Assembly: GCA_947259985.1 (NCBI GenBank)
Contig: CAMYOJ010000051.1
Location: 1-64,000 of the forward strand
DNA length: 64,000 bases
Reading direction: 5' to 3'
Origin: an uncultured Woeseiaceae bacterium
Lineage (GTDB): Bacteria; Pseudomonadota; Gammaproteobacteria; Steroidobacterales; Woeseiaceae
The position numbers and the translations under genes are program-made. Below, piece by piece: positions 2,880 to 62,045 of the stretch (within the stretch, counting starts at the first letter, position 1; the number at the start of each line of letters is the position of its first letter). The notes below the pieces were generated by a model, which saw nothing but the letters and a program-made list of their open reading frames with translations, had not been told where the DNA came from and did no database searches.

Positions 2880-4453
2880 CTAACGCATTAACCCAACTTC
2901 GTCGTCGTATCCGGTCATCTCCCAGCGAGCCAGGGAAATCGGGATGCTGTCTATGGCATTGAGCTGATCGAAAAACCGCCGGAGCCGAAAATCCTGACCT
3001 CGTTGCTCGGCCAGCCGCGCGTAGTCTGCCAGCGTGCGCTCGAGCAGGTACTCTCGGTCTTCATCCAGCCGCGCGGTGTGAAGTTCATGTGCACCCGGCC
3101 GGCCTCTTCCATGGTCATTTCATTCGCATGCGCGTACAAGGAGCCGAGCCCGCGTGCTGCACGTTGCGCAAGCAGAATCCAGACGAGCTCGCGTGAGCGC
3201 GGGCTGTCGTCGTACAGGCCTGCATGCATGAACATCTCTTCAACGCCGGTCGCCGTTCCTTCGTTGCGACTGTCGAAAATGTTGTAGAGCAACGCGCCCT
3301 GGCGAACCGGGCTCTCGTGCGGCTCACGATCCATGCGTGCCAGCTCGAACCAGTGCCAGAAGTGCGTGAACAATGGCGCCGGGTCGTAATGGGCCGTGAT
3401 CCAGAAGAAGTGACGCTGCTCCTCGGGAACGAACGATCCCTTGTGCTCTTGAAGCACCGGCTCCATGTAATCGGCGATCGTGACGATGTCTTTCTCTTTC
3501 AGAAAACGCATGATGCGAGCGATCGCCTTGTCGGCCATTGCGTCATACTCTTCCGGCGTGCTCGCCGCGACCATCGGCGGCAGGTCGCGGTTGCGTTGTT
3601 CCTCGAGTTTCAGTGACGACCAGGCGCGGGCAAGTTCACGTTTCAGCAGGCGCTCCTCATCCTCCCAGCTCATCGGCACAAGGTGCACGTTTTGCTGGTA
3701 CCAGGTGTAGTTGTCCTTGCCGATACCCGACGGACCCGTCTTCGATTTTGCTTCGGCCTCGAGCCAGGCGATGAGCTCGTCGGTAGCTGTTTTTGACGCC
3801 TCGACAATGCCCTGTAGTTCATCACTCGCCGAGTCGCCGAGTTTCCCCTCGACTTCGGCCAGAACGGCACGCTGCCCGCGGATGTCCCGGATTCCGGTCA
3901 CCCAGAGGTCGCGCGCGTTCCCGGTAAGGTTGCCTCGCGCCTGCTTCATGAGCGGTGGAATAACCGCCAGCTCGGACGTCAGCCGCTGTTGTTCGGAAGC
4001 ACTGAGTGGAAACTCGTAGGTCCAGAGTTCGACGAGCGCATGATGCGTCGGCCCCTCGTGCGCAGGCACATCGCTGCGATAGGTCCAGATCGTATTGTAG
4101 AAAGCCGGGTCGCGGGTCCACGGCTGCAGCACGCGTTCATTAAAATCATAGCCGTTCATCTCGGCGCGCACGAGGTGCCAGTCAACCTGTTGCGGGATCG
4201 GCCAGTCCTCGATGTCGAACGCATCCAGGCGCTCTCGCAGCTGCAGGAAGTCGTCGCGGCGAGCGGCAAATTGCTTCGCCGTGTAATCGGGTGCGCCATC
4301 AAGCAGCGGTGGTGATTCGAACTCTCTCCAATCGGCAAACAACACGAGCAGATCGTCGTAGCTTGTAGCCATATCCACGCTCTCAGTTGCGGCGGCGAAT
4401 CCGACCGGGACGGACATCAGGATAATGGCTACGGTGACGCGTGCAAATCTCAT
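2880..4453 (-). pseudogene. DUF885 family protein, frame broken near its C terminus
   Basis: From the ATG at 4453 the protein has a signal peptide ([20 protein letters not shown]) and a DUF885 body, with the family stretches [16 protein letters not shown] and [12 protein letters not shown]. The long frame continues to 2951, but after [16 protein letters not shown] (about 3050-3090) it turns into non-homologous, Ser/Arg-rich sequence. A neighbouring frame from about 3050 reads [16 protein letters not shown] and, further on, [10 protein letters not shown], the typical DUF885 ending, with a stop at 2880-2882. By family memory, a stretch of some 20-25 residues between these blocks is missing, so this is a deletion plus frameshift. 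DUF885 proteins are periplasmic and often annotated as peptidase-like. The upstream ATG at 4552 would place sequence before the signal peptide and is not preferred. Confidence 0.75.
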
Positions 4454-4594
4454 GAGTGGTCCAACCGGGCGACGGGGGTGTGGGCTCGAAATCGTAGCAA
4501 AGCCCGGCCGGTGTGCGCATCCGCCATATCGTGTATCTTCGTGCGACTGCAAAACCGCCGGTGCCCGGAAACATTGGCCAGGATTGGTGAAAGA

Positions 4595-6697
4595 ATGAGA
4601 AGAATGACCGCATGCCTGCTAGTTTCGATATTCCTGATGACTGCCTGCGCTGAAAAGACACCCGACCACCCGGTCGCCGAGAAGCGTCCCGTCGAGCTCG
4701 AACGCCACGGCCACGTTCGCACCGATGACTATTTCTGGCTCAACGAGCGCGACAATCCCGAGGTCATCGCTTACCTCGAGGCGGAAAACGCCCACACGGA
4801 CCATGTCCTCGAACCGACCGTCGGCCTGCGGCAGCGACTGGTCGACGAGATGGCGGCGCGCATCAATGAGGACGAAACCTCGGCGCCGTATCGCGACGGT
4901 GACTACTATTACTACTATCGTTACGAGGCCGGCAAAGATTACCCGATCTACTGCCGGCGCAAGGGCTCGCTCGACGCGGACGAGGAGATCCTGCTCGACG
5001 TGAATGCGATCGCCGGCGACGAGGAGTATTTCTCGGTGCGCGGCGTGGAGGTCAGCCCGGACCATCGCATCCTCGCTTACGGCGTCGACACGCGCGGCCG
5101 CCGCTTTTATGACCTCAAGTTCATCGATCTCGAATCAGGCGAGCATCTCGATGACGCGATCGACGATGTCACTCCGTACTACGTATGGGCGAATGACAGC
5201 AAGACGATCGTCTATGTCCGACAGGACCCGGATACCTTGCGCTGGTTCCAGGTGTACACGCACGAGCTGGGCAACGCGGAAGATGCGCTCATCTACGAGG
5301 AACAGGATGAAACCTTCAGCGTGTACGCTTACAAGTCGCTGTCGGACCAGTTTATCTACGTGCAGAGCGGCAGCACGCTTTCTACCGAAGTCCTCTACGT
5401 GCCGGCGGACGACCCGAGCGCCGAATTGACCGTGTTCCTGCCGCGAGAAGCCGAGCACGAGTACTTTGTTTCCGACGGCAAGGACCGCTTCTATGTCATG
5501 AGCAACGACGGCGCCCAGAACTTCCAGCTGCTCGAGGCTCCGCTCGATGACACATCCAAAGCAGCCTGGCAGCTTGTCGTACCGCATCGTGACGATGTAT
5601 TGATCGAGGGCTTCACTGTGTTCGCCGAACACGTCGTAGTCACGGAAAAAAGAAACGGCATTGAGCGCGCTGAGGTTCTCAAGCGCAGCGACGGCAGTAT
5701 CCACGAAATTGCATTTGACGAAGCGACCTTCCAACTTTCATCAGGAGACAACGTCGATTACGACAGCAGCGTGTTCCGCTACGACTACGAATCGATGACG
5801 CGGCCCGCCTCCGTCTACGACTACGACATGAATTCGCAGGACACCGAACTTGTCTGGCAGAAGGAAATTCAGGGTGATTTCGATCCGGACAATTACTATT
5901 CCGAACGCCTGTTCGCGGAAGTTCGTGACGGCACGCAGGTTCCGGTATCACTCGTTTATCGCAAGGGTATCGAGCTTGATGGCAGTAACCCGTTACTGCA
6001 ATACGGCTACGGATCCTATGGCTACAGCATCGAACCCGATTTCGACCGCGAACTGCTTAGCCTGCTCGACCGCGGCTTCATCTTCGCGATCGCCCATATC
6101 CGCGGCGGCTCAGAGATGGGCCGGCAGTGGTATTACGACGGCCGCCAGCTCAAGAAGATAAACACCTTTACCGATTTCATCGACGTATCGAAATTCCTGA
6201 TTGCCGAGGGCTACACCTCGCCCGAGCATCTGTATGCGCGTGGCGGCAGTGCCGGCGGGCTACTCATGGGCGCCGTTATCAACATGGCGCCTGAACTCTA
6301 TAACGGCGTGACGACGCGCGTGCCGTTCGTCGACGTGGTGACCACGATGCTCGACGACAGCATTCCCCTGACGACCAGCGAATACGACGAATGGGGCAAT
6401 CCGAACGAGAAGGAAGACTACGACTACATGTTGTCGTACTCGCCCTACGACCAGGTGTCAGCCCAGGAATACCCGCACATGCTGGTCACGACCGGCCTGC
6501 ACGACTCGCAGGTACAGTACTGGGAGCCGGCGAAATGGGTCGCGAAGCTGCGCGAGCTGAAGACCGACGACAATATCCTCGCGCTGGAGACCGACATGCA
6601 GGCCGGGCACAGCGGCAAGACCGGGCGCTACCAGAGTCTCGAAGACGATGCTTTGTACTACGCGTTCTTCCTGTACCTCGAGGGAATCTCGGAGTAG
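4595..6697 (+). CDS. Prolyl oligopeptidase family (S9A) lipoprotein, oligopeptidase B-like
   Basis: A 700-residue serine peptidase with an N-terminal beta-propeller (about 40-420) and a C-terminal alpha/beta-hydrolase domain. The nucleophile lies in [11 protein letters not shown], with the family motif [11 protein letters not shown] upstream; the Asp ([17 protein letters not shown]) and His ([13 protein letters not shown]) of the triad are both present. I chose the ATG at 4595 because it gives a short basic n-region and a lipobox-like FLMTAC, consistent with a periplasmic lipoprotein; the frame stays open further upstream to 4478 without a plausible leader. Oligopeptidase B-type enzymes cleave short peptides, often after basic residues. 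It is divergent from the broken DUF885 gene, and together they suggest peptide scavenging. Length and domain order are normal for S9A. Confidence 0.93.
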
Positions 6698-6727
6698 TTC
6701 GGCGACCGTCCTGTCGCGACAAAGCAG

Positions 6728-6928
6728 CTAATCCGCCGCGGCGACGAGTTCCTGCTCTGAAAGGGCCGGCTCGATGGCCTTGACTTCGACGCTGATCATG
6801 GACTTGGCCTCCGCCGCGCTCATGATTGGCTGACCCTGCGAATTGGCCGCGATATCGGTGGTGCCGCATCCTGCCAGTGCCGACAGGGCGGCCAGGACCA
6901 CGATTATGTTCACATTGTTGATGTTCAT
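6728..6928 (-). CDS. Small hypothetical lipoprotein
   Basis: A 66-residue protein with signal sequence MNINNVNIIVVLAALSALAGC, whose lipobox LAGC would be processed and lipidated at Cys21. The mature part is only about 46 residues, is Ala/Glu-rich and includes the repeated-looking AAEAKSMISVEVKAIEPAL. No family is recognised. It converges on the S9A gene, and its 5' side faces the polyphosphate:AMP phosphotransferase gene, so the 154-bp gap between them should hold divergent promoters. The clean lipobox makes it a likely real gene despite its size. Confidence 0.65.
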   Translation of the reverse strand: MNINNVNIIVVLAALSALAGCGTTDIAANSQGQPIMSAAEAKSMISVEVKAIEPALSEQELVAAAD

Positions 6929-7082
6929 TCTGGACCTCCCTGGTCCGTTTACCTTCCTGATGCTTTAGATAACGTCTCTGTACCTTTGTGGTTGACGACC
7001 CCTCGGTATATGACAACATCCAATCGTCGCTTTCTGCTATAAAATCAGGCCATTGTGTAAAGGGGGGCGACTGCGACCAATC

Positions 7083-8588
7083 ATGTTTGATGCGGCAGAA
7101 CTGGGGCAACGCGTTAGCAAACGCGAATTCAAGGAACGGGAGCTGGAGCTGCGCACGAAGCTCCTGACCCTGCAATACAGGACGCAGGAGCTGGCTCGCT
7201 TTCCCGTGCTTATTGACTTTGCAGGCGTCGAAGGCGCCGGCAAGACGACCACCATAAACATGCTCAACATGTGGATGGATCCGCGCTGGATCCGCACCAC
7301 GGGGTACCAGGAGCCCACGCAGGTCGAGATGGCGCGGCCGCGATTCTGGCGCTACTGGCGGGATATGCCCCCGAAAGGCCGGGTTGGCCTGTACCTCAGC
7401 GGCCGCTATTCGCGCCCGTTGATCGGGCGCGTTTACGACCATATCGACGAACACGAATTCGACAAGCGGCTTTCGGAAATCATCCGCTTTGAGAACGCGC
7501 TGGTCGACGACGGCGCGCTGGTGCTGAAATTCTGGATGCATCTCGGCGCGGCGCAGCAGGAGAAGCGGCTCAGGAAGCTCGAGGCGGACCCACTGCGCAG
7601 CTACCAGGTAAACGAGGAAGACTGGCGGAACCATGAAAACTACGAGAACTTCATCGCAGCCGCCGAGGATCTCATTACGCGGACGAATCGAGTCGGCGCT
7701 GCCTGGCATATCGTCGAGGGCGGCAATGAGAACTACCGACACCTCCGCGTCGGCGAGATCATTGCGGGTGAACTGGGCCGCCACCTCGACGCGCAGGAAC
7801 AGGAGGCTGCGAACGAACGGCCACCGGCCCGCGTCGCCAGTCCGGACACGCCGCAGGTTGTGACGGTATTCGATGCGCTGGACCTGACGCTCGCCTTGCC
7901 AAAAAGCGAATACAAGGAAAAGCTGGCCACATACCAGGCCCAACTTGGCGAACTCGGGCGCAAGGCGCAGGAGAATGGCATCTCGACGGTACTCGTTTTC
8001 GAAGGCCCGGACGCCAGCGGCAAGGGCGGCGCAATTCGTCGCACGGTCTGGAGTCTCGACGCACGCAGTTTCACCGTGCACCAGTTCGCGGCGCCAACGG
8101 AAGAAGAGCGGGCGCATCATTACCTGTGGCGCTTCTGGAAGAGACTTCCGCGTGCCGGTCAGGTGGCCGTCTTCGATCGCAGCTGGTACGGACGCGTGCT
8201 CGTTGAACGTGCCGAGGGTTTTGCAACAGCGACGGAGTGGCGGCGCGCGTACAACGAGATCAACGACTTTGAGCACCAGATCGTCGACCACGGCACCCTG
8301 CTGCTGAAATTCTGGCTGCATATCGACGAGGATGAGCAGCTCGTGCGCTTCCAGAAGCGAGAGAAGTCTCCCTACAAACACTGGAAACTGACTGACGAGG
8401 ACTGGCGTAACCGCGAATTGTGGGAGGCCTACGAGCAATACGGACAGGACATCGTCCAGTATACGAGCACGAAGAAAGCGCCGTGGATACTCGTTGAAGC
8501 CAATAACAAGGGATACGCCCGCCTCAAGGTGCTGAAGACCCTCATCGACCACCTGTCGGCCCGGCTGGACGATAACGGCATCGAATGA
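7083..8588 (+). CDS. pap: Polyphosphate:AMP phosphotransferase, tandem PPK2 domains
   Basis: A 501-residue protein with two PPK2-type kinase domains in tandem. Domain 1 (about 1-230) has Walker A FAGVEGAGKTTTINML and lid motif LSGRYSRPLIGR; domain 2 (about 255-490) has FEGPDASGKGGAIRR and FDRSWYGRVLVER. The double-domain arrangement is the class II PPK2 signature, which transfers phosphate from polyphosphate to AMP, making ADP. Domain 1 departs from the consensus lid (SGRYSRP in place of DRSWY), as is usual because one half is degenerate; domain 2 is the likely catalytic half. The ATG at 7083 is preferred over a GTG at 7053 because a purine-rich GGGGGGCGA sits about 10 nt upstream. Its stop overlaps the next gene in an ATGA junction. 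Confidence 0.93.
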   Translation: MFDAAELGQRVSKREFKERELELRTKLLTLQYRTQELARFPVLIDFAGVEGAGKTTTINMLNMWMDPRWIRTTGYQEPTQVEMARPRFWRYWRDMPPKGRVGLYLSGRYSRPLIGRVYDHIDEHEFDKRLSEIIRFENALVDDGALVLKFWMHLGAAQQEKRLRKLEADPLRSYQVNEEDWRNHENYENFIAAAEDLITRTNRVGAAWHIVEGGNENYRHLRVGEIIAGELGRHLDAQEQEAANERPPARVASPDTPQVVTVFDALDLTLALPKSEYKEKLATYQAQLGELGRKAQENGISTVLVFEGPDASGKGGAIRRTVWSLDARSFTVHQFAAPTEEERAHHYLWRFWKRLPRAGQVAVFDRSWYGRVLVERAEGFATATEWRRAYNEINDFEHQIVDHGTLLLKFWLHIDEDEQLVRFQKREKSPYKHWKLTDEDWRNRELWEAYEQYGQDIVQYTSTKKAPWILVEANNKGYARLKVLKTLIDHLSARLDDNGIE

Positions 8589-9040
8589 TCAGGAGGCTCT
8601 TCGTACAGGTCATCGAATCGATTTCGGTCAGTGACACGAGCGCAGGAGTCGATCGTGACGCCGCGCTGCGCCTGGCAACGGCAGTGCTCATGATCGACGT
8701 AGCACGCGCCGATCACCTCTTCGATGAAAGCGAGTTCGAGCGCGTACTACGGCTCGTCGAGCAGCACTTCCAGCTTTCGCCCGAAGAAGCAGCCGAGCTC
8801 GTAATTCTGGCGAGCGACAAGGCAGACGACCTCGTCTCGGTGCACGAATTTACCGAACTGCTGCACGAGCACCTCGATGAAAACGAGAAAGCACGCATCG
8901 TCGGGATGCTCTGGGATGTCGCCTATGCCGACGGGCAGCTCGACAAGTACGAGGACTCGTTGGTCCTGAAGATCAGTGATTTACTGTATGTGAGCCGTCC
9001 GAGAGTCATGCGGCTCAAACACGATGCGAAGCACCGCTAG
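8585..9040 (+). CDS. TerB-like helical protein
   Basis: A 151-residue, all-helical, acidic protein. The core pattern (ATAVLMIDVARADHLFDESEF, then later GMLWDVAYADGQLDKYEDSLV) is the duplicated acidic motif of the TerB/tellurite-resistance-B superfamily, in which conserved Asp/Glu residues bind divalent metal. It overlaps the pap stop by 4 bp and is surely cotranscribed with it. The pairing suggests a role near polyphosphate or divalent-cation handling, but that is inference only. Its stop is 2 bp from the stop of the convergent mechanosensitive channel gene. Confidence 0.85.
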   Translation: MIRRLFVQVIESISVSDTSAGVDRDAALRLATAVLMIDVARADHLFDESEFERVLRLVEQHFQLSPEEAAELVILASDKADDLVSVHEFTELLHEHLDENEKARIVGMLWDVAYADGQLDKYEDSLVLKISDLLYVSRPRVMRLKHDAKHR

Positions 9041-9042
9041 AG

Positions 9043-11119
9043 TCAGGCGGCCGGTTCCGGCTCCTGGTCCGGTTCCTCCAGGCCAGCCAACGGCTGTTCG
9101 GGGTCCTTCCATCCCGAGCGCATGTGCAGATCGCGCTGCGGGAACGGGATTTCGATGTTGTACTCCCTGAACTTGTCTTCGAGCGCCCAGAGATAAGCTG
9201 CCCGGGTCCGCGTCGGGCGCCTCGCGCCTTGCCGGTTTACCCAGACGAGCAGCAGGAAATTCAGGCTACTGTCACCGTATTCCACGAGCCAGACATCGGG
9301 CTCGCGGCCGCGCAAGTTCTTGAGCGTATATTGAACGTCCGCTGCTGCTTCCAGCGCCGCTTTGCGCACGAGTTCCTTGTCGCTGCCGTACGCGACACCA
9401 AATGGGATGCGCACCCTGAGTATGCGTTCGCCGAGCGTCCAGTTGGTCACTGCGAACGTTGATCGCTTTGACGGTGCCGGTTAGGCCGGTGTCCAGTTCG
9501 ATGTAATCACCGACCCGGAGCGAGTGCTCGAACAATATGATCAGTCCGGACACGAAATTGCTGACAATGGACTGCAGGCCGAAGCCGATGCCGACACTGA
9601 GCGCGCCAGCGACAAGGGCGAGGTTGCTGAAATCGAGCCCAATCGTCGAAAGTGCGACGAACGCCGCGATGGTTATGATCGCGTAATGACTCAGCCTGCC
9701 CACCGTATAAAGCGACGCCTGGGTACCGGCATCCTGGCTCGAACTGAAGCGGTTGATCGCATGGCGAACCAGCCGCGACAAGAGGAAAGCGACGATCAGG
9801 ATAACGATCACGCGCAGGATATCGCTGCCGGCAACGGGCGTGCCGCTTAACTCAAAAAGAGTCGTGTCGGCAATCTCGCCAACACGGTCGTAGAGCCCCC
9901 GGAAAAACCGTTTGGTGATCGCCAGCCAGGACTTCAAAGTACCAACGTTCTCGACAAACGCGTTCTCGGCGACGACGTTCAACAGTTCAAGGTCTTCGGC
10001 GGCCGCCTCCAACTCCTCAATTCGCGATAGCGTCGCCTGCGCGGTACCCGATCGCTGATCCAGCAAACGTCGCGCGGAGCGATTAAGTCCATCCCGGTCG
10101 GCCGTCTGCACGGCGAACACCTCATCCTGCGTGTCGGCGCGCCATTCATGCATCTTCTCACCGACATCGCGGACGAATTCCCTCGCGCCGAGCGACAGTT
10201 GCTGTAATTCTGCGGTGTCAGGAGCTGTACCGAGCAGCAGTTCGGCCCATATCAGAAATGTGTTCGACTTCATCCAGTGCAGTCGGGCCAACGCATGGAC
10301 AACCTGTGCTTCGGTCAGCTTTTGACGTACGAGTCGCTGCTGGGAACGGCCTTCGGGCGTATCCAGGGAGAGCCGCGAAGCCGATATCTCCGTGGCCCGA
10401 AGCCGCTCGGCGGCTTTTTCCACGGCGGCTTCGGCTTTGGTCACATCCTCTTGCAGTTGCGACAGTTGCTCGTCGCTGACGGTCTTTGGCAGCAACTCGC
10501 TGGCGATTTCCACGCGCTCCTCGACGGCCGCCGCGAAAGCCGATGCCTGATCGGAGCGATTGGTCAGCAGCCTCACGCGCATCCTCGCAATTGCGAGCGC
10601 CGTACGATTCTGTATCAGCCGAAGGGCGGCGAGGAATCGCTCATCACCTGGCTTCGTTTCCAGGTAACGCTTGAATGACAGGTCGCGACGCTCCCTGATG
10701 CCGTCCAGGATTCGTTGCTCGCGATTTACCTCGTCCTGCTGCTGTTGTGCCGTCGCACGAGCATCCCTCGATTCGGCGGCAATTTCGAGCAGCTGCTTGG
10801 GAGCTTCTTCAACATCACCCAGCAACTCGAGGTATGCGCCAAGGTTTTCCCTAATCTCCTCAAGAACTGACTGGCCAACTTCCTGGTTGGTCGCCCGCAG
10901 CGTTGCGAGCTGCGTCTCGACGTCGGTTAGAAAAGCGTCGACTCGTGGTCGCGGATCGTCATCTTCCCCGGTCGGCTCGAAATAGGTCCACCAGCCCGAC
11001 TGCAAGGCATTCAGATCCGGTGGATCGAGCGGCGGCGCCGGCTGCTCGGCTTCCTGCGCGTGGACCGAGGTCACGGCCAATACGGCGATCAACAGCAGAA
11101 ATCGTATGGTGCGCGTCAT
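9043..11119 (-). pseudogene. MscS/MscK-type mechanosensitive channel, internally deleted and frameshifted
   Basis: The start at 11119 gives a signal peptide (MTRTIRFLLLIAVLAVTSVHA) and a long coiled-coil periplasmic domain (to about residue 400). Then come membrane helices and the MscS pore helix region (VAGALSVGIGFGLQSIVSNF), followed by RVGDYIELDTGLTGTVKAINVR. At 9450 the frame breaks. The rest of the C-terminal cytoplasmic domain (TNWTLGERILRVRIPFGVAYG onwards) is in another frame, ending at 9043. The roughly 22-residue segment that MscS proteins carry between NVR and TNW (the TNDN...VPNSEF stretch of the beta domain) is absent at the join. As written the channel would end in about 60 nonsense residues. 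Intact homologues release osmolytes under membrane tension. Confidence 0.85.
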
Positions 11120-32970: not shown

Positions 32971-32996
32971 TCTAATTTAGAAGTCTATAAATTAGA
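32971..32996. promoter_or_regulatory. Operator-like inverted repeat between regulator and sqr
   Basis: TCTAATTTA (32971-32979) and TAAATTAGA (32988-32996) are perfect 9-bp inverted arms with an 8-bp spacer in an AT-rich island between the divergent ArsR-type regulator and sqr. Size and symmetry fit the winged-helix operators of the BigR/SqrR class. Its place about 45-75 bp upstream of both starts would allow control of both promoters. Confidence 0.7.
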
Positions 32997-33042
32997 CTTT
33001 GCTACTATATTGTAATATCGTGAGCGCAGCAGAAAAGGGGAG

Positions 33043-34284
33043 GTGCAAGAAGTTTACGAACTCAGGAAAGAGCTCGACCGGCAGCACGAGATCGTCCTCG
33101 TCGGCGACTCGGACCACTTCGAATTCACGCCGTCGAACCCGTGGGTGGCGGTTGGCTGGCGCAAGCCGAAGCAGATCAAGGTCGATCTCCCCGATACGAT
33201 GAAGAAACACGGTATCGAGTTCCATGGACAAGGCGTCAAACGCCTGAATCCTGAAAGCAATCGCCTCGAACTCAACGACGAAACGACCGTCGAGTATGAT
33301 TACCTCGTCATCGCTACCGGGCCGAAACTCGCGTTCGAGGAAGTGGAAGGACTCGGCCCTGATGGCGGCCACACGCAGTCTGTCTGCAAGACCGGGCACG
33401 CGGAATCATCCTTTACCGACTTCGAAGCACTCGTCAAGAACCCGGGGCCCGTCGTCGTCGGTGCGGCGCCGATGGCCTCGTGCTTCGGACCCGCCTACGA
33501 ATACATTTTCATCCTCGATACGGAACTCAAGAAGCGAAAGATGCGCGACAAGGTGCCGATGCACTTCGTGACTCCTGAGCCCTACATCGGTCATCTCGGC
33601 CTCGACGGTGTCGGTGACACCAAGAGTCTCATGGAATCCGAATTCCGCGACCGTCATATCCAGTGGACCACGAACGCGAAGATCACGAAGGTCGGCGATG
33701 GCACGATGGAGTTCACCGAGGTGGACGAAGACGGGAACGACAAGAAGCAACACGAGCTGCCGTTCAAGCATTCCATGATCCTGCCCGCTTTCAAGGGCGT
33801 CGATGCCGTCATGGACATCGAAGGCCTGACCAATCCGCGTGGCTTTATTCTCATTGACGACCACCAGCGTAATCCGACGTACAAGAATATCTACGCGGTC
33901 GGTGTCTGCGTCGCCATCCCGCCCGTCGGACCGACCCCCGTCGCAACGGGCGCTCCGAAGACGGGCTACATGATCGAGTCCATGGTAACGGCGACGACTC
34001 ACAACATTGCCGCCGAACTCAGGGGTGGCGAGCCTGACGAGCGCGGCACGTGGAACGCGGTCTGCCTGGCTGACTTCGGCGATACGGGCGTTGCATTCGT
34101 CGCACTGCCACAGATACCACCACGCAATACCAACTGGGCATCGCGTGGCAAGTGGGTACACCTCGCGAAAATCGCTTACGAGAAGTACTTCCTGCACAAG
34201 GTACGCACGGCGAAGACAGAGCCTTACTACGAAAAGACGATCATGAAGCTGATCGGCGTCGAACGTCTGAAAGAATCCCGCTAG
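33043..34284 (+). CDS. sqr: Sulfide:quinone oxidoreductase, N-terminal FAD-binding loop missing
   Basis: A 413-residue flavoprotein. Matches to SQR are strong: DHFEFTPSNPWVAVGWRKP, YDYLVIATGPKL, SVCKTGHAESS, GAAPMASCFGPAYEY, NIYAVGVCVAIPPVGPTPVA, and the three Cys expected of SQR (in SVCKTG, ASCFGP and GVCVAI). The enzyme oxidises sulfide and passes electrons to the quinone pool. However, the N terminus starts only at QEVYELRKELD; the first beta strand and the GxGxxG dinucleotide-binding loop that precede YELRKEL in relatives are absent. A different frame just upstream (GTG at 33020, MSAAEK) looks like the real start, so a segment of roughly 50 bp seems lost near 33040 with a frameshift. As written the protein could not bind FAD. 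Confidence 0.88.
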   Translation: MQEVYELRKELDRQHEIVLVGDSDHFEFTPSNPWVAVGWRKPKQIKVDLPDTMKKHGIEFHGQGVKRLNPESNRLELNDETTVEYDYLVIATGPKLAFEEVEGLGPDGGHTQSVCKTGHAESSFTDFEALVKNPGPVVVGAAPMASCFGPAYEYIFILDTELKKRKMRDKVPMHFVTPEPYIGHLGLDGVGDTKSLMESEFRDRHIQWTTNAKITKVGDGTMEFTEVDEDGNDKKQHELPFKHSMILPAFKGVDAVMDIEGLTNPRGFILIDDHQRNPTYKNIYAVGVCVAIPPVGPTPVATGAPKTGYMIESMVTATTHNIAAELRGGEPDERGTWNAVCLADFGDTGVAFVALPQIPPRNTNWASRGKWVHLAKIAYEKYFLHKVRTAKTEPYYEKTIMKLIGVERLKESR

Positions 34285-52056: not shown

Positions 52057-52120
52057 TCGCGACGGGCGCTGCCCGGCTGCTGGCGCTACAATGCCTGCTT
52101 AAGCCCAAAGGAGCGCCCGT

Positions 52121-53182
52121 TTGACCGCAGCACCCGAGTCCAGGTCGCAGGACACCCAGGCCTATCTGCCGGATTTCTGCGCGGCGAGCACGCTGTTCAT
52201 CGTCCTGCTCGTAGCCGAACTCGTGGCGATCGCGCTAACGCTGGCTGCTCATGATTCGGGTGGCCAGTTCCTGGTCGAACTGTCGAAGACCTCTTTCTTC
52301 ATACTCTGGCTCGCCTTGCTGGGCACCGCCGTGATGTGCCAGATCAAGAGTCGACTCGAGAGTACCGGGGCCACGCGTGCTTTCGTGATCGGCTTTATCG
52401 TGCTCGAAGTCGTCTGCCTGCTGATTGCCGAAGTGTCATGGCAGCTCACGCGCATATTCGCGGAGTCGACGATTATTCATGACACGCACAGCAACTTCAT
52501 ACTGCGTACGTTCGCGATCAGTTCGATCGTGATCGCGCTCGCGATGCGCTACCTGTACATTTCGAGCGAGTGGCGCCGCAGTATCGTGCTGGAAGCCCAG
52601 GCACGAATCAGCGCGTTGCAGGCGCTCATTCGGCCGCATTTTCTTTTCAACAGCATGAACACGATCGCGTCACTCACGCGCTCGGATCCGCTGCAGGCCG
52701 AGGAAGCCGTCGAGGATCTGTCCGACCTGTTGCGTGCGACCCTGAGCAGCCCGAAGGACATGTCGTCGCTGAAGCAGGAACTCGAGACCGCCGCCATATA
52801 CCAGCGTATAGAGAAATTGCGACTGGGTGACCGGCTCAGCGTGCGCTGGGACATCGGCGATTTGCCGATGCGCACAAGAGTGCCGAACCTGACCATTCAG
52901 CCCTTGCTCGAGAACGCCATCTACCATGGCATCGAACTGCTGCCCGACGGCGGCGAGGTCACGGTCACCGGCAGATGCGATGGCAAGATGCTCGAGATTG
53001 AGATGTCGAATCCGGTTGCGGCGGGCAAAGCGCGCGACAAGGACGGCAACAAGATGGCAATGAACAATATCCAGCAGCGATTCGACCTGGCGTATGGCGG
53101 CCGTGCGTCAGTCGAAGTCGACGACAGCGACGAACGCTTCGCCGTAACACTGCGCTTTCCCGAAAACCAGGGTGCTGTATGA
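52121..53182 (+). CDS. algZ: AlgZ/FimS-type sensor of the LytS histidine-kinase family
   Basis: A 353-residue membrane protein with a TTG start and AAAGGAG upstream. Four membrane helices (about 20-150) precede a His_kinase domain: the phospho-His lies in LIRPHFLFNSMNTIASL, followed by NLTIQPLLENAIYHGIEL, the N-box of the ATPase. As in AlgZ of Pseudomonas, the canonical G1 motif is weak. It overlaps the LytTR-type regulator by 4 bp. AlgZ-AlgR controls alginate, type IV pili and virulence in Pseudomonas; here its targets are unknown. A TACAAT (52087-52092) may be the operon -10. Confidence 0.9.
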   Translation: MTAAPESRSQDTQAYLPDFCAASTLFIVLLVAELVAIALTLAAHDSGGQFLVELSKTSFFILWLALLGTAVMCQIKSRLESTGATRAFVIGFIVLEVVCLLIAEVSWQLTRIFAESTIIHDTHSNFILRTFAISSIVIALAMRYLYISSEWRRSIVLEAQARISALQALIRPHFLFNSMNTIASLTRSDPLQAEEAVEDLSDLLRATLSSPKDMSSLKQELETAAIYQRIEKLRLGDRLSVRWDIGDLPMRTRVPNLTIQPLLENAIYHGIELLPDGGEVTVTGRCDGKMLEIEMSNPVAAGKARDKDGNKMAMNNIQQRFDLAYGGRASVEVDDSDERFAVTLRFPENQGAV

Positions 53183-53929
53183 GAGTCCTCGTCGTCGACG
53201 ACGAAAAGCCGGCCCGTGACCGCTTACGGCAGATTCTCGAGGACGAAGATGACTACGAGGTCGTGGGCGAAGCAGGAAACGGGCACGACGCGTTGGCGCT
53301 TGCGGCCGACCTCGAACCGGATACCGTGTTGCTGGATATTCGTATGCCCGGGCTCGATGGCATAGAAACCGCCCACCACCTGAATGAACTCGACAAGCCG
53401 CCGGCCGTCGTCTTTGCGACGGCCTACGACGAATACGCCGTCGACGCTTTCGAAGCACGTGCCATCGGTTACGTACTGAAGCCCGTGCGCCGCTCGCGCC
53501 TTACGGCAGCGCTCGCACACGCGGCGCGGCTGGCGGGATCCGCGCTGCGCGAGGTCGCCGGCGAGGCCAGCCAGGCTCGACGCGCCGCGACAGCATGTCT
53601 GCGCGCGCGTCCACGGGGAACTCAAGCTCATCCCGCTCGCCGACATCAGCTGCTTTCGCGCCGACCAGAAGTACGTGAGCGTCGACCATGACAATGGACA
53701 GGACCTCATCGATGACTCGCTCAAATCCCTGGCCGAGGAATTTGCCGCGCAGTTCGTGCGCGTTCACCGCAGCGCCCTGGTCGCCGTCAGTCGCATCGAG
53801 AAGATCGAGAAGACCGCTGACGGCAAGAGCCGCGTGGTGCTGCGAGAGGGCTCGCAAGTCGACGACAAAGAGCTGATAATCAGCCGCCGGCATGTTGCGG
53901 AAGTTCGTCGGCGGCTGAAGGAATCATGA
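53179..53929 (+). pseudogene. algR: AlgR-type LytTR response regulator, frameshifted in the linker
   Basis: The first frame (from the ATG at 53179) encodes a complete receiver: VDDEKPARDRLRQIL, acceptor Asp in TVLLDIRMPGLDG, FATAYDEYAVDAF and the Lys of YVLKPV. After REVAGEASQARR (near 53585) it runs into nonsense. The LytTR DNA-binding domain continues in the +1 frame from about 53591: QHVCARVHGELKLIPLADIS, then CFRADQKYVSVDHDNGQDLI, to LIISRRHVAEVRRRLKES at 53929. A net change of one base (or two lost) would join them. LytTR regulators bind DNA as dimers. It overlaps algZ by 4 bp and hemC by 4 bp, as in Pseudomonas. Confidence 0.87.
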
Positions 53930-54852: not shown

Positions 54853-55618
54853 GACACCGCTCGAAGGGGTCGGCGTACTCGTCACGCGGCCACGGACGCA
54901 GGCAGCCGAACTCGTATCAGCAATCGAAGAACAGGGCGGTGAGGCGTTCTGTTTCCCGGTCATCGATATCGTCGCGCTCGACCAAAGCCGGGTCTCAGCC
55001 GAGGCGTCGGCCATGCCCAGCCCCGACGTGACGATCTTTATCAGCCGCAATGCCGTCGAGTACGGCCTGAAATATTCAGGAGGCGGCAAGATTGCCGTGA
55101 TCGGCCCCGCCACGGCGCGGGCAGTCCGATCAGCCGGCAGGGTCGTGGATATCGAGCCAAAAGACGGTCATGACAGCGAACACCTGCTCGCCGAGCCCGG
55201 ATTCCAGGACATTGATGGCCTCGACGTTCGCATCATTCGCGGCGGCAAGGGGCGCGAACTGCTTGCCAGCGAACTCAGGAATCGCGGTGCCAATATTAAC
55301 TACCTGTCTGTCTACGAGCGCCGGCTGCCTGTCGTCAGTCCCGACATGCTGGCCGAACTCGAGGCCCGCTGGCGTGGCGGCAATATCTCGGTGATAACCG
55401 TGATGAGCGTGCAGTCGCTGCAAAACCTCATCAAGTTACTGCCCGACTGGTGCAGAAGTCAGCTCGAATCCACACCACTGGTGACCCCCGCCGGTCGTGT
55501 GTTAAAAGAAGCGCTGGACCGCTACCCTGCTTCCCGACCGATACTCTCATCGGGCCCGCAAGCCGGCGAAATGGTACAGGCAATCATCGCACTCCAGAGT
55601 CCCGGACTAGCACCATGA
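54845..55618 (+). CDS. hemD: Uroporphyrinogen-III synthase
   Basis: A 257-residue enzyme: GVGVLVTRPRTQAAELVSAI, PDVTIFISRNAVEYGL, IAVIGPATARAVRSAG, and LDVRIIRGGKGRELLASEL. It cyclises hydroxymethylbilane with inversion of ring D. Sequence conservation in HemD is low, but place and motifs agree. It overlaps hemC by 8 bp and hemX by 4 bp (ATGA). Confidence 0.95.
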   Translation: MAETPLEGVGVLVTRPRTQAAELVSAIEEQGGEAFCFPVIDIVALDQSRVSAEASAMPSPDVTIFISRNAVEYGLKYSGGGKIAVIGPATARAVRSAGRVVDIEPKDGHDSEHLLAEPGFQDIDGLDVRIIRGGKGRELLASELRNRGANINYLSVYERRLPVVSPDMLAELEARWRGGNISVITVMSVQSLQNLIKLLPDWCRSQLESTPLVTPAGRVLKEALDRYPASRPILSSGPQAGEMVQAIIALQSPGLAP

Positions 55619-56907
55619 GCGACACAGACAAGCGAAAAGAACCAGGCGCGACAGAAAGCTCAGCCGCCGAAGAGACGAGCGTCGAGGAAAGCCCGGCAGT
55701 TGACGAAACTCCCGAAAAGGGGAGCGGGGACCTGGCGGATGAGGCGACCGGCGAACAGCCCGCGGACGATCAGCCCGTCGAAGACGAGCCGGCCGAAGAC
55801 GAGGTCACAAGTAGTCAAAGCAGCTTCGAAGCGTCAGCAGAGGAAGCACCTGTTGCCGAATCGGCGCCAGCCGCGGGCCGGGGTGTCGCCTGGCTCGCCC
55901 TGCTCGTGTCCGCGGTGGCGATAGCCGCCGTCGCCTACACATTGTTCCTGGACTGGCGCAGCGCGGGCGATGACACCGCCGACGATGCGATCGCGTCGCT
56001 CGAGCGCCAGCTGAATGACAGCCGCGAACAGCTCGGCAATCTCGATGCGCTGGTTGCCGAACTCGCGGGGCGCGACTCGGTTTCGGCGGCCGATATCGAT
56101 GCCCTCAGGAGCCAGCTCGAGGAACGCGTCGACGTATTGAGTTCTTTGCCGCCGCGCATGTCCGCCCTGGAAAGCTCGGTGGCTTCCCTGGCCGGAATAT
56201 CTGAAGGAGCGCGTGATACCTGGTTGCTGGCAGAGGCCGAGTACTACATGCAGATCGCCAACGCGCAGCTGCAGCTTGCGAACAATCCGCACCTCGCCTC
56301 GCTGGCGCTGGCAATGGCCGATGAGCGCGTCGTGCAACTGGCCAACCCCGGGCTGACGGACGTGCGTCGCGCCATCGCCGACGAACTCGCGGCACTTGCC
56401 GTTATGGAAAGGCCCGACATAGCCGGCACGACGATGACGCTCGCCAGCCTGTCACGCGTGGTTGAATCGCTGCCCGTCAAGAGCGCACCCGCTGCCGCCG
56501 AGCAGGCGCCGCAGGAAACCGATGAGGAACAAAGTGGCGTGGGACGCGCCTGGTCGTCCGTCAAAGGCGCCATGGCCGGGCTCGTCAAGGTTACGCCGCC
56601 GGACCAGGCCAGGCTGGAGGTGCTGACCCCGGACGTCGAATATTTCCTGCGCAATAATATCGCCCTGCAGTTACAGGCCGCACGGCTCGCATTGTTGCGT
56701 GGCGAGCAGGCCATTTTCGAACAATCGCTCGACGACACGAGCGCGCTCCTCAGGCAGTACTTCGACACCGACAGTACGCAGGTTGCAGGTGCGCTCGAAA
56801 CGCTCGAGGAGATTCGCGGCAACATTTTTGCGACCGCGGCACCCGATATTTCAGGGTCGCTGGATCTGCTGCGTCAGTTCCAGGCATTGCGCGAGAACTC
56901 ACAGTGA
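55615..56907 (+). CDS. hemX: HemX-like membrane protein of the hem operon
   Basis: A 430-residue protein with a long acidic, low-complexity N-terminal tail (about 85 residues of Glu/Asp/Ala), one membrane helix (WLALLVSAVAIAAVAYTLFL), a coiled coil (LERQLNDSREQLGNLDALVA) and a HemX body in the periplasm (TWLLAEAEYYMQIANAQLQL, EYFLRNNIALQLQAARLALL). HemX in gammaproteobacteria is fused or adjacent to uroporphyrinogen methyltransferase elsewhere, but its role is unclear. The ATG at 55615 overlaps hemD; upstream frame is shadow. It overlaps hemY by 4 bp. Confidence 0.93.
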   Translation: MSDTDKRKEPGATESSAAEETSVEESPAVDETPEKGSGDLADEATGEQPADDQPVEDEPAEDEVTSSQSSFEASAEEAPVAESAPAAGRGVAWLALLVSAVAIAAVAYTLFLDWRSAGDDTADDAIASLERQLNDSREQLGNLDALVAELAGRDSVSAADIDALRSQLEERVDVLSSLPPRMSALESSVASLAGISEGARDTWLLAEAEYYMQIANAQLQLANNPHLASLALAMADERVVQLANPGLTDVRRAIADELAALAVMERPDIAGTTMTLASLSRVVESLPVKSAPAAAEQAPQETDEEQSGVGRAWSSVKGAMAGLVKVTPPDQARLEVLTPDVEYFLRNNIALQLQAARLALLRGEQAIFEQSLDDTSALLRQYFDTDSTQVAGALETLEEIRGNIFATAAPDISGSLDLLRQFQALRENSQ

Positions 56908-58100
56908 AATTCGGCATCATCGTCGTGCTGGCCCTGTTCGCAAGTGCCTTTGCGGCGCATTTCCTGCTGGCCGACCCCGGCTACGTCATCATCAATTTCC
57001 GCGGCTATGTCATCGAGATGTCCGTGCCGGTATTGCTGGGACTGGCCGTCGTACTGGTTTTCGCGATCTGGCTCGTGCGCAAGATCGTGCTGGCGCCGCG
57101 CAGGCTCGGTGAGGCTGCCGGACGTTACCGCTCTGCGCGCTCAGGGCAAAAGCTCACACGCGGCATGATCGCCGTTGCCGAAGGCAATCTCGCGCGCGGT
57201 GAGAAAATGCTCGCCCGGGCTGCAAGTACCAGCGACTCGCCCTTGTTCAATTACTTGCAGGCGGCGCGGGCCGCCCATCTGCAGGGACGCGATGAACGGC
57301 GCGACGAGTGGTTGCGACTCGCCTACTCCGAAACACCCGAGGCTGCCAATGCCGTGCTCCTGACACAGGCCGAATTCCAGCTTGATCGCGGCCAGAATGA
57401 ACAGGCCCTCGCGACATTGCGGCGCGTGGACGAAAATTCGAAGGACCATGCACATGCCTTGTCGCTGCTGGGGCGACTGTATTTCGAACTCGAGGATTGG
57501 GATTCGCTTGGCGAATTGCTGCCGCGCCTGAAGAACAACAAGCAGCTCAAGCCGGAAACGCTTGGCGCCTGGACGACCCGGGTGCACAAGGAGGCGCTCG
57601 ATCGTGCCGCAGACGGCCTCGCCGTGGAGACCGCATGGAAAGCCGTGGCACGCGCGCACAGGTCCGACCTGTCCCTGCTCGAGGCCTATTATGGAGGCTT
57701 GATGCGCGCCGGAGAGCACGACCGCGTGGAGAAGGAACTGGCCGCAGCGCTGCGCTCGGAGTGGCGCGGTCCGCTGGTGCGACTCTTTGGCCTGGTCGAG
57801 TCCGGTGACACGACCCGGCAGCTAAAACGTGCCGAGGGTTGGCTCAAGAACCATGGCGACGATCCCGACCTGTTGCTGACGGCGGCGCGGCTATGCCTGC
57901 GCAACGAACTCTGGGGCAAGGCGCGCAGCTACCTGGAGACCGTGCTCAGCCTGCGGCCGACACCCGAGGCCTACCAGGAATACGGCAGTCTCCTGAACCA
58001 GATGGGTGAAGCGGACGCGGCGGCCAATGCCTACCGCGACGGGCTCGGCATGGTCGCAGCTGAACCGCGCCCGGCCATTCCGCACATGGAAAATGGCTAA
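56904..58100 (+). CDS. hemY: HemY-type TPR protein of haem operon
   Basis: A 398-residue protein with two N-terminal membrane helices (about 3-22 and 40-58) separated by the conserved DPGYVIINFRGYVIEMSVP. TPR repeats then follow (RGMIAVAEGNLARGEKMLAR; FNYLQAARAAHLQGRDERRD and so on). This is the gammaproteobacterial HemY, not the protoporphyrinogen oxidase of the same name. It is expected at the inner membrane in haem-synthesis organisation. It overlaps hemX by 4 bp and the epimerase-like gene by 8 bp. Confidence 0.95.
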   Translation: MKFGIIVVLALFASAFAAHFLLADPGYVIINFRGYVIEMSVPVLLGLAVVLVFAIWLVRKIVLAPRRLGEAAGRYRSARSGQKLTRGMIAVAEGNLARGEKMLARAASTSDSPLFNYLQAARAAHLQGRDERRDEWLRLAYSETPEAANAVLLTQAEFQLDRGQNEQALATLRRVDENSKDHAHALSLLGRLYFELEDWDSLGELLPRLKNNKQLKPETLGAWTTRVHKEALDRAADGLAVETAWKAVARAHRSDLSLLEAYYGGLMRAGEHDRVEKELAAALRSEWRGPLVRLFGLVESGDTTRQLKRAEGWLKNHGDDPDLLLTAARLCLRNELWGKARSYLETVLSLRPTPEAYQEYGSLLNQMGEADAAANAYRDGLGMVAAEPRPAIPHMENG

Positions 58101-58944
58101 GCACGAAGCGGCCGAGTCCATGTTCGTATTGTTGACGGGTGCCGGCTACACGGGCCGACGCATATTGTCGATGCTGCCCGCAGATTCCGTCGCGGCCCTG
58201 AGCCGTTCGCGCGTTGACACCGACCGGCAGCTTTTCCCTTTCGACCTTGACTCGGCAAGCGAACTGCCACTCGAACTGCCCGCCCGCTATGCCGTCATTT
58301 ACACGGTCCCGCCCAGCGGCGAACCGCCCGACGAGCGGCTGCAGACATTCCTGTCCCTCGTATCCCCGGCTCGATTTATCTACATCAGCACCACGGGGGT
58401 ATATGGCGATTACGGGGGGCAAACCGTAACCGAGGCCAGCGCCCTGAAACCCTCTAACCGGCAGGCGGCCAACCGCGTCGCCGCCGAAGAGCTGCTGACG
58501 ACCTGGTCGCGGCAAAACGACGTGGCGCTCATCGTCCTGCGGGCCCCGGGCATCTACGGTCCCGGCCGCCTGGGTACGGAACGCATCCGCTCGGGCACGC
58601 CAGCGATCGCCGAGGTCGATGCTAACCCGGGCAACCGGATTCATGTCGATGACCTGGCGCGCTGCTGTGTGGCTGCGCTCGACGAAAATGTCCCGGCCGG
58701 CATTTACAACGTGGGGGACGGCGATCACCGTAGTCCGACGGCCTTCACGAACGAGGTCGCGCGCCAGCTGGACTTGCCCGCACCGCCGCAAATAAGCCGC
58801 GCCGAAGCACAGCAGCAGTTTTCGAGGCAGCGAATGGCATTCCTGTCCGACTCACGCATCGTCGACACGACGAAAATGCGTGAAGTGCTGGGCGTAATAC
58901 CCCGTTACGCCAATCCCGAGGACGGAATTCGGGCGAGCCTGTAG
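58093..58944 (+). CDS. NAD(P)-dependent epimerase/dehydratase-like protein (extended SDR)
   Basis: A 283-residue SDR. The dinucleotide motif is VLLTGAGYTGRRIL, with a Thr in ISTTGVYGDYGGQTVTEASAL, YxxxK-like ANRVAAEELLTTW, and LRAPGIYGPGRLG. The family is YeeZ-like, with unknown substrate. The ATG at 58093 overlaps hemY by 8 bp; a later ATG at 58120 gives the more usual MFVLLTGAGYTG start. It appears to be the last gene of the algZ-hemY operon. Confidence 0.88.
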   Translation: MAKHEAAESMFVLLTGAGYTGRRILSMLPADSVAALSRSRVDTDRQLFPFDLDSASELPLELPARYAVIYTVPPSGEPPDERLQTFLSLVSPARFIYISTTGVYGDYGGQTVTEASALKPSNRQAANRVAAEELLTTWSRQNDVALIVLRAPGIYGPGRLGTERIRSGTPAIAEVDANPGNRIHVDDLARCCVAALDENVPAGIYNVGDGDHRSPTAFTNEVARQLDLPAPPQISRAEAQQQFSRQRMAFLSDSRIVDTTKMREVLGVIPRYANPEDGIRASL

Positions 58945-58954
58945 CAGCGCGCCG

Positions 58955-59593
58955 CTACGGTTGGCTGCGCTTGCTGCGCAACCACGCCGTGAGTGGCTCC
59001 CATTCGTCCCAGTCGGGCCATGCCAGGTACTCTGGCAGCTCGAAGATTCCGAGGCCGCGCGTATAGGCGCGAACGTAGTTTTGCGCCTCGCGCAAAGCCG
59101 CTATGTACGGCACCCGCGCCTTGGTCAGGTACTCATCGAGATCGTCGAAAATGAGCGTATTGTCACGCGCGCGATTGGCAACGGTGCCAATCTTCGCCTG
59201 CTTGCGCGCGACCTTGCCCACTGCCTTGAGCTCCTCGAGAAACGTCGTCGTTGCCTGCATGTCTATCGTCGACGGCAATACGGGTACCAGGATGGTTTCT
59301 GCGTGTTTCACGAGGTCCGTCAGCTCTTTGCCGTGCGAGCGCGCCGGGGCGTCGATGATGATGTAATCGGCGTTGCGTGGCGCGTGCTTGAAACCGTCTT
59401 CAAACGCCGCAACACCAATGATTTCAGGACGATTGTCGGGCCGGCGTGCCAGCCAGTCGAGGCTCGATCGCTGCGGGTCGTAGTCGGCAAGCGCAACGGT
59501 AGCGCCTTCGTTGGCAAAGTAGGAAGCAATGTTGGTCGCGAGGGTGCTCTTGCCACAACCACCTTTCGCATTCATAACCATTATGTGCCGCAT
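58955..59593 (-). CDS. ParA-family ATPase (orphan)
   Basis: A 212-residue ParA-like ATPase. The deviant Walker A is NAKGGCGKSTLATNIASY, then LADYDPQRSSLDWLARRP and ADYIIIDAPARS (Walker B region). No parB, chromosome-partition or chemotaxis gene is near, so the cargo is unknown. The ATG at 59593 has GGAGAG upstream; a TTG at 59611 adds six residues. The C-terminal part (YLAWPDWDEWEPLTAWLRSK) is Trp-rich and typical of a small ParA group seen next to housekeeping genes in gammaproteobacteria. It is divergent from dapF. Confidence 0.92.
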   Translation of the reverse strand: MRHIMVMNAKGGCGKSTLATNIASYFANEGATVALADYDPQRSSLDWLARRPDNRPEIIGVAAFEDGFKHAPRNADYIIIDAPARSHGKELTDLVKHAETILVPVLPSTIDMQATTTFLEELKAVGKVARKQAKIGTVANRARDNTLIFDDLDEYLTKARVPYIAALREAQNYVRAYTRGLGIFELPEYLAWPDWDEWEPLTAWLRSKRSQP

Positions 59594-59653
59594 GTCTCTC
59601 TCCAAGGGCAATGTTGTTTTGAGGTCGGTATTTTATGTAAAACTACAGAGGCC

Positions 59654-60463
59654 GTCATCAAAAGTCCAAATGTTTCCGGGAACAGGATTCTTGTCGTTGA
59701 CCAACGCGGTGAGAATCGTGCGCCGCCCAACGCGCAAACTTTGCAGGTACTTGGCAACGACTCAACCGGCCCCGGTTTCGATCAGCTGATGTGGGTCACA
59801 GACGCTATCGAGCCGGACAATGCCGCCAGTTATCGTGTGTTCAACCGCGATGGCTCCGAAGTCGAACAATGTGGCAATGGAGTTCGCTGCGTGGCAAGAA
59901 TGCTGGCGGGGCGCGCAACGGACTCCCTGGTACTCGAGAGTCCGGCCGGGCTCGTCGAGGCCCGCGTGCTCGACAACGGGGACGTGTCGGTCAGCATGGG
60001 CCGTCCGGAGTTCGAACCGTCGCGTATACCGTTCCTCGCCGACGCCCAGTCCAATGCTTACTCTCTCGATCTCAACGGCCAGGAGCTCGCGGTGCAGGTC
60101 GTCTCGATGGGCAATCCGCACTGCGTATTGACCGTAGACGACGTAGATGCCGCCGACGTGCAGTCGCTCGGGCCTCTACTAGAGCATCATGATCGATTCC
60201 CGAATGGTGCCAACGTCGGATTCATGCGGATTGTCGACCCCGGAAACATCGAATTGCGCGTCCACGAACGCGGTGTTGGCGAGACGCTGGCCTGTGGCAC
60301 GGGTGCCTGCGCTGCCGTCGTTTGCGGTCAGCAATCGGGGCTGCTCGAAGACGAAGTCAAGGTGCGGCTGCCGGGTGGCCAAGTCGTGGTAAGCTGGCGC
60401 CGTGGCACAGTATGGCTCACCGGAAACGCCGAACTGATCTCTGAAGGAAGCCTGGATATATGA
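59654..60463 (+). CDS. dapF: Diaminopimelate epimerase, 5' end damaged or unusual
   Basis: The body is clearly DapF: GFDQLMWVTDAIEPDNAASY, NRDGSEVEQCGNGVRCVAR (first catalytic Cys), VSMGNPHCVLTVDDVD, HERGVGETLACGTGACAAV (second catalytic Cys). The enzyme converts LL- to meso-diaminopimelate for lysine and peptidoglycan. The N terminus is a problem: no ATG, GTG or TTG is in frame upstream of the family start (nearest are ATT at 59630 and an internal TTG). The first residues VIKSPNVSGNRILVVDQRG lack the usual KMHGxGNDF. The +1 frame reads KVQMFPGTGF at the same place, so a small indel near 59660-59680 is likely. The coordinate given is only the first family-like codon. It overlaps the next gene by 4 bp. 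Confidence 0.88.
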   Translation, partial: VIKSPNVSGNRILVVDQRGENRAPPNAQTLQVLGNDSTGPGFDQLMWVTDAIEPDNAASYRVFNRDGSEVEQCGNGVRCVARMLAGRATDSLVLESPAGLVEARVLDNGDVSVSMGRPEFEPSRIPFLADAQSNAYSLDLNGQELAVQVVSMGNPHCVLTVDDVDAADVQSLGPLLEHHDRFPNGANVGFMRIVDPGNIELRVHERGVGETLACGTGACAAVVCGQQSGLLEDEVKVRLPGGQVVVSWRRGTVWLTGNAELISEGSLDI

Positions 60464-61164
60464 GTACGCAGCCTGAACCGGAATACGTCGACGAACCGCT
60501 GTCAGAACAAGCTGTGCGTGACTATCTCGCCGCCAACCCCGAATTCTTCGAAAACAATGCCAAACTGCTCAGCTCGCTCAACCTTCCGCATGCGAGCGGC
60601 GGTGCCGTGTCACTGGTCGAACGGCAGGTATCGATGCTGCGGCAGAAAGACCTGAAGCTCGAACGCCAGCTAAAAGAACTGATCGAAGTCGCACGCGCCA
60701 ATGATTTGCTATCCGCGAAGATTCACGAATTGACGCTGCAGCTGCTTGCCGCGGGCGGCCTGCAAACAACGGTCGCTGCCGTCGAGGAGGCGATGCGCAG
60801 CGGTTTCGACGCGGACCAGGCCGTGCTCGTTGTGTTCGGCGAGCCCGACGCCTTCGCTGACATCAATGTCGGGCGGTTCTTCCACGTCGTAGAGCGCAAG
60901 GACTCGTCACTCAAACCTTTTTCGACGTTTCTTGGCGGTAAAGGCGCTCGCTGCGGCCGGATTCGTGACTCCCAACGCGAGTTCCTGTTCCACACGGATG
61001 CCGAGGAAATCGGCTCGGCCGCGCTCATACCGCTGGGCAAGGGTGCCGAAATCGGCTTCCTGGCGGTTGGCAGCGTGGATACCGATCGTTTTCACCCCGG
61101 CATGAGTATTGACTTCCTGACGCGGCTCGGCGATCTCATCGCAGGGGCTCTGAAACGCTACTAA
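60460..61164 (+). CDS. DUF484 family protein
   Basis: A 234-residue protein with the DUF484 start VRDYLAANPEFFENNAKLLS, the coiled-coil LVERQVSMLRQKDLKLERQL and a GAF-like C-terminal domain (SAALIPLGKGAEIGFLAVGS, SIDFLTRLGDLIAGALKRY). The function is unknown; the gene lies between dapF and xerC in most gammaproteobacteria, as here. It overlaps dapF by 4 bp (ATGA). It is the usual length for the family and shows no defects. Confidence 0.94.
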   Translation: MSTQPEPEYVDEPLSEQAVRDYLAANPEFFENNAKLLSSLNLPHASGGAVSLVERQVSMLRQKDLKLERQLKELIEVARANDLLSAKIHELTLQLLAAGGLQTTVAAVEEAMRSGFDADQAVLVVFGEPDAFADINVGRFFHVVERKDSSLKPFSTFLGGKGARCGRIRDSQREFLFHTDAEEIGSAALIPLGKGAEIGFLAVGSVDTDRFHPGMSIDFLTRLGDLIAGALKRY

Positions 61165-61168
61165 GCCC

Positions 61169-62045
61169 ATGGACGATGCCGGCTGGATCGATCGTTTTGT
61201 CCGGCACCTCGAATTCGAGCGTCGACTGAGCCCGCTCACCTGCAAGAATTACCGGCGCGATCTCGAAATGCTGCGTGACTTCGCCGCGACCTCTGGTGTC
61301 TCGGGGTGGGATGGCCTGGACGAAGAACACATACGCGCGTATTCGGCGGCCAGCTTCAGGAAGGGCCAGAGCGCGAAGAGCATACAGCGACGCCTGTCCG
61401 CCGCCCGCACCTTCTTCCGTTACCTGATGCGCGAGAAGTTCGTTGAAAAGAACCCGATTGCGTCGGTATCTGCGCCGAAAGCGCGAAAACGGCTGCCTGG
61501 CAACCTCGATGCGGATCGCATGGCCCGGCTGCTCGACATTCCGGGTGACGGCCCTATCGTCGATCGCGACCGTGCCATCCTCGAGCTGCTGTATTCCTCG
61601 GGCCTGAGGCTCGCCGAGCTGACCGATCTCGATTGTGGCGACGTCGACATACAGGACGCCACGGTGCGGGTCACTGGCAAGGGCAACAAGGATCGCATCG
61701 TCCCTGTCGGCCGACATGCGCGCAAGGCGGTCTTGAAATGGCAGCGATCCCGGCCCGGCATGGCCAATGTCGACGAAAAAGCGCTGTTCGTGTCGAACCG
61801 CGGGACGCGTATAAGCCCACGCTCGGTGCAGGCCCGGGTCAGCCACTGGGCCCGCCGCCAGGGCATCGATGTTCCGGCATTCGTTCGCAACCCACCTGCT
61901 GGAATCGAGCCATGACCTCAGGGGCGTGCAGGAACTCCTGGGGCACGCCAACATCTCCACGACGCAGGTTTATACTCACCTTGATTTCCAGCATCTGGCC
62001 CAGATATACGACCAGACGCATCCACGAGCGCGCAAGAAAGACTAG
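61169..62045 (+). pseudogene. xerC: Tyrosine recombinase XerC, frameshifted by an internal deletion
   Basis: The first frame holds the N-terminal SAM-like domain (EFERRLSPLTCKNYRRDLEM) and catalytic Arg in [12 protein letters not shown] and Lys in [13 protein letters not shown]. After RRQGID (61870) it runs out of frame; the +1 frame reads [20 protein letters not shown], then [20 protein letters not shown] with the catalytic Tyr, ending HPRARKKD at 62045. Relatives have [16 protein letters not shown], so the bases for about VHPH are gone: a net loss of about 14 nt including the catalytic His of HxxR. The short repeat ATGT at both ends would allow slippage. XerC resolves chromosome dimers at dif. 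Confidence 0.9.

Follow-up and report, generated by a model that had tools for sequence, protein, structure and literature searches.

Disrupted genes in the window

The window is a stretch of DNA of 64,000 nucleotides (G000:C51:1-64000, where G000 is the label of the source genome and C51 that of the contig carrying the window). The G000 draft comprises 2,502,603 bases in 60 contigs, and is 82.17% complete and 3.22% contaminated. Proteins and DNA from genomes of the same genus (given labels beginning with G or L) were used as reference material and aligned to the window. The portion comparable to at least one relative amounted to 32.7 kb out of 64 kb, so further lesions may exist in the window.

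Six genes of the window are damaged, as the original prediction had stated. Five of them lack a block compared with the genomes of the same genus. The sixth, the algR-like gene, has gained four bases. The six genes are:

2895..4552, minus strand: DUF885 gene, split over two frames by the loss of 73 bp at about 3052/3053
9043..11119, minus strand: MscK-like mechanosensitive channel gene, split over two frames by the loss of 68 bp at about 9449/9450
33037..34284, plus strand: sulfide:quinone reductase-like (sqr-like) gene that lacks its start codon and the N-terminal GxGxxG block, with the junction at about 33043-33050
53179..53926, plus strand: algR-like response regulator gene, split over two frames by 4 extra bases at 53567-53574 (CCAGCCAG)
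59668..60463, plus strand: dapF without start codon and about the first 10 residues; junction at about 59668-59677
61169..62042, plus strand: xerC, split over two frames by the loss of 20 bp at about 61869/61870

Alignment to relatives, which had been proposed as the way of sizing the missing bases, gave an exact size for four lesions, a range for dapF and a lower bound for the sqr-like gene. In the search of the window with proteins of the same genus, the loss in the DUF885 gene measured 73 bp in all eight frame-switch events, and that in the MscK-like gene 68 bp in seven out of eight and 65 bp in the remaining one. For xerC, 65 of 65 frame-switch events gave 20 bp, with one additional in-frame event at 39. 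A contiguous piece is thus gone from these three genes, and likewise from the sqr-like gene, as had been claimed. The proposed position of the xerC loss between ATGT repeats, on the other hand, received no support from the relatives. The description of the flanks as well kept proved accurate, and in xerC the identity to relative L054 is 78% on the 5′ side of the junction and 98% on the 3′ side. The alignments revealed a single clean lesion with conserved flanks in each reported gene, with neither relaxed conservation nor multiple lesions.

The sqr-like gene, whose family match scores under the curated cut-off, lacks about 16 residues including the start codon and the GxGxxG block, corresponding to at least about 45 bp; this loss has no exact size because the leader length differs among relatives. 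Upstream of it, at positions 32974-33000, lies an AT-rich block (AATTTAGAAGTCTATAAATTAGACTTT) with similar sequences in L045, L046 and L048, perhaps a regulator site. In dapF, 9 bases separate the conserved leader and the GGNAAC codons in the window, versus 65 in L054, 67 in L055 and 32 in L058, L060 and L066. Since this spacing differs by relative, the loss is given as 23 to 58 bp. The upstream part of the open reading frame at 58961-60463 is a chance open frame. The algR-like gene possesses the receiver domain, and relative L054 has a LytTR domain. The four additional bases were found in 34 out of 37 frame-switch events, and the window sequence at this place is a tandem.

Relatives and copies elsewhere in the genome

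The joins of the window were absent from every relative examined, and no alternative start recovers the conserved N-terminus in dapF or the sqr-like gene. Neither of the two observations that the original prediction had named as speaking against it was made. Of 30 genomes examined, G000 among them, 27 have a XerC that scores above the family cut-off. The exceptions were G000 and G010, whose breaks lie at different places, and G009, without a match above the cut-off. In G010 the gene misses 94 bp.

A second dapF was not found in the genome, where dapF matched a single locus. Nor was an intact second xerC found in G000, which has the broken copy, a 3′ fragment on contig C3, and a XerD-like gene. 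Contig C3 (L023, 4959 bp) carries a second copy of the region spanning the end of xerC through hslVU, with 80.8% identity to the window across 2079 bp; the G000 bin seems to be a mixture of two related genomes. The missing blocks were also sought as moved pieces, by comparing the DUF885, MscK and SQR peptides of relatives with 707.5 kb of G000. Apart from the pieces in the window itself, the matches listed comprised weak ones and MscS-like paralogues on L173 and L180.

Lesions of the same kind across assemblies

Open frames from 170 stretches, belonging to 79 genome labels (with contig C3 counted apart), were searched mutually, retaining those length differences that were consistent and had the support of at least three genomes. 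Long lesions were defined as frame-breaking losses of at least 20 bp or in-frame losses of at least 40 bp. Fourteen of them were found in 2,052,557 comparable bases, the lesions of dapF and the sqr-like gene, cut at gene ends, falling outside this number. Thirteen named loci equalled a contig of a G label in length; eleven of these duplicates were left out, the remaining two were counted with their G label, and others may remain.

Five long lesions belong to G000: the losses of 73, 68 and 20 bp in the window, one of 111 bp in a plsB-like gene at about 19623 of contig C55 and one of 43 bp in an AcrB-family gene at about 26156 of the same contig (43 by protein, 46 in three of four DNA alignments). 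Four belong to G009, namely 76 bp in uvrA, 23 bp in rho, and two of 63 and 51 bp. The sites in G009 are L235 at about 17150, L232 at about 8173 and 12907, and L234 at about 2308. The remaining five are two in L105 (66 and 78 bp), one of 74 bp in ubiE of L071, one of 35 bp in L077, and the xerC loss of G010. Both losses in L105 (FCS_Gamma_095) are in frame and lie within 9 kb, at about 3705 and 7213. DNA alignments agreed on 76 bp for uvrA in five of ten, on 74 bp for ubiE in seven of twelve, and on the size of the two other G009 losses in two of four each. The genes struck include dapF, xerC and the plsB-like gene in G000, rho and uvrA in G009, and ubiE in L071.

The lesions cluster by assembly. 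G000 and G009 together hold nine of the fourteen on 10.3% of the comparable bases (tail 1.6e-6), a figure inflated by the way stretches were chosen: the window lesions were known before the survey, contigs C5 and C283 of G009 were chosen for split genes, and C55:20001-40000 was chosen after the plsB-like gene had matched only partially. Without the three window lesions and uvrA of G009, five out of ten lesions lie on 8.7% of the bases (tail 9e-4), and when two more on G009 stretches picked for a split gene are removed, three of eight remain (tail 0.027). The distribution within G000 is uneven as well: the 34.8 kb of C51 contain three screened lesions besides those of dapF and the sqr-like gene, the 28.5 kb of C55 contain two, and the 90.8 kb of other G000 contigs contain none.

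Among other frame changes, those of 1-2 bp were absent from the 154 kb of G000 screened, where only the gain of four bases in the algR-like gene and a loss of five in an MFS transporter were detected. The transporter lies beyond the window, at C51 about 76762 (L150 about 13762). Elsewhere, one base is missing in L062, and L093 has a gain of 118 at an N-run.

N-runs and their true sizes

N-runs were present in four of the 79 labels: G000 (88, 41 and 82), G016 (98, three times), G009 (72) and L093 (113); L162, consisting of N throughout, was left out of this count. Twenty additional stretches of G000 (331 kb) contained two further runs, of 82 and 100. Two of the five G000 runs in 707.5 kb could be sized, the others being those of 41 (L166), 82 (L257) and 100 (L260). 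In the formate dehydrogenase gene, the flanks of the run align to residues 835 and 879 of the chain of a solved relative, so that 43 residues (129 bp) are missing versus 88 N, a shortfall of 41 bp. In TrmJ, on the chain of one solved relative, residue 36 pairs with the last residue before the run and residue 84 with the second one behind it; 46 residues (138 bp) are missing versus 82 N, a shortfall of 56 bp. These shortfalls indicate that the N-runs of G000 are gaps of underestimated size and not masks. With an error of this order, smaller gaps would close without any N. As far as sizes are available, the losses in G000 stay at or below 73 bp in six of seven cases, and the plsB-like loss of 111 bp is larger than the N-run error seen.

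In other assemblies the errors of the N-runs go in both directions: +99, −27 and, from two relatives, about +227 in G016, and +118 in L093. The 72-N run of G009 gave +105 or +171 according to one relative each, an error towards excess length and not towards shortness. The runs of G016, on L171, L217 and L230, are each exactly 98, and relatives show nothing missing at the one with +99, which suggests a fixed filler.

Junctions and reading frame

Direct repeats above chance were not detected at the ends of the deletions in the 14 lesions. Comparing the right flank with the start of the missing piece gave matches of 0.28, 0.28, 0.29 and 0.29, versus 0.45, 0.31, 0.27 and 0.26 for 4000 random cuts. 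This comparison is weakened because relatives substitute for the lost bases. The reading frame was kept in five of eleven lesions of at least 40 bp, whereas among 98 deletions of 15-39 bp it was kept in 95, a rough contrast because in-frame and frame-breaking losses were detected by different routes and the numbers are small. The three frame-breaking deletions of 15-39 bp (20, 23 and 35 bp) are all among the 14 lesions.

Origin of the lesions

The six genes most likely look broken because the draft was stitched over unread gaps; this would be neither gene loss nor a biological feature. As far as sequence comparison can tell, the lesions are probably an assembly artefact in which small scaffold gaps were closed to nothing. 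On this reading, the window belongs to a scaffold of a Woeseiaceae-related metagenome-assembled genome. At places where about 20-110 bp had no read coverage, adjacent contigs would have been abutted, with the gap size in G000 underestimated, as shown by the shortfalls of 41 and 56 bp at the sized runs. Bigger gaps would retain an N-run that is too short, and smaller ones would go to zero, leaving a clean loss that breaks the frame at chance rate. A small true overlap placed end to end could yield the 4-bp duplication of the algR-like gene. The losses and the N-runs would then have a common cause, and the organism itself presumably carries intact genes. An artefact had already been regarded as the simplest reading, and the clustering by assembly, the mis-sized N-runs, the junctions free of repeats and the weak respect of the frame support it. 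Several findings stand against closed scaffold gaps in particular. Five of the 14 lesions belong to labels that show no N-run over the stretches examined (G010, L071, L077 and L105), and the G010 lesion sits on a contig named k141, a MEGAHIT-style name. The N-run errors of other assemblies run both ways, the plsB-like loss is larger than the error seen in G000, where two of five runs could be sized, and the lesions are unevenly spread within G000.

The lesions in labels without N-runs and on the k141 contig would fit with another technical artefact, such as a gap-filling program closing gaps wrongly or a polymerase skipping hard templates, and so would N-run errors running both ways in other assemblies. 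We consider this a possible but rather unlikely source, as the two sized runs of G000 are both short, by amounts comparable to most G000 losses.

A real and recent decay of these genes, in a lineage truly carrying the deletions, appears improbable. In its favour, the losses are clean and agree across many relatives, and the lesions are spread unevenly between contigs. However, it would have struck several housekeeping genes together while both flanking pieces stayed conserved, leaving one clean lesion per gene with no relaxed conservation, and it does not account for lesions that cluster by assembly alongside mis-sized N-runs.

A mutator lineage, or slipped-strand deletion at short direct repeats, had been kept as an option in the original prediction and is very improbable: the tandem in the algR-like gene is what slippage would produce, but no repeat beyond chance occurs at the 14 junctions, changes of 1-2 bp are missing from the G000 sequence screened, and the distribution over assemblies, the mis-sized N-runs of G000 and the weak respect of the frame speak against slippage. 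Equally hard to credit is that the joins are real, which would give this lineage and G009 clean deletions of about 20-110 bp in housekeeping genes by a process independent of repeats, with the genes somehow rescued.

Implications and comparison with known assembly errors

If gaps closed to nothing are the source, the phenomenon is ordinary, yet misleading for annotation, and the broken gene calls in G000 and G009 should not be taken for gene loss. Comparing genes with those of relatives, together with sizing intragenic N-runs, offers a cheap detector of assemblies with gaps closed to zero. In a limited literature search, we recognised no published description of this lesion signature.

Related errors are nonetheless described. 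The mis-sized or negative scaffold gaps of draft assemblies treated in the part of the PBJelly paper considered here (PMC3504050) resemble the present case in that contigs are abutted, from the distance between paired reads, with an incorrect gap size, which leaves wrong sequence at the join; under-predicted gap sizes are among the suspected causes. In the PBJelly case the gaps are marked in the draft, whereas here they would be closed with no N and visible only as broken genes. Similar to the lesions of the window, the assembly errors addressed by Kastor, in the portion of that paper drawn on here, mimic pseudogenes and are revealed by comparison with reference genes (PMC12007338). The errors in that portion are tied to the error rates of long reads, whereas the lesions described here remove blocks of about 20-110 bp.
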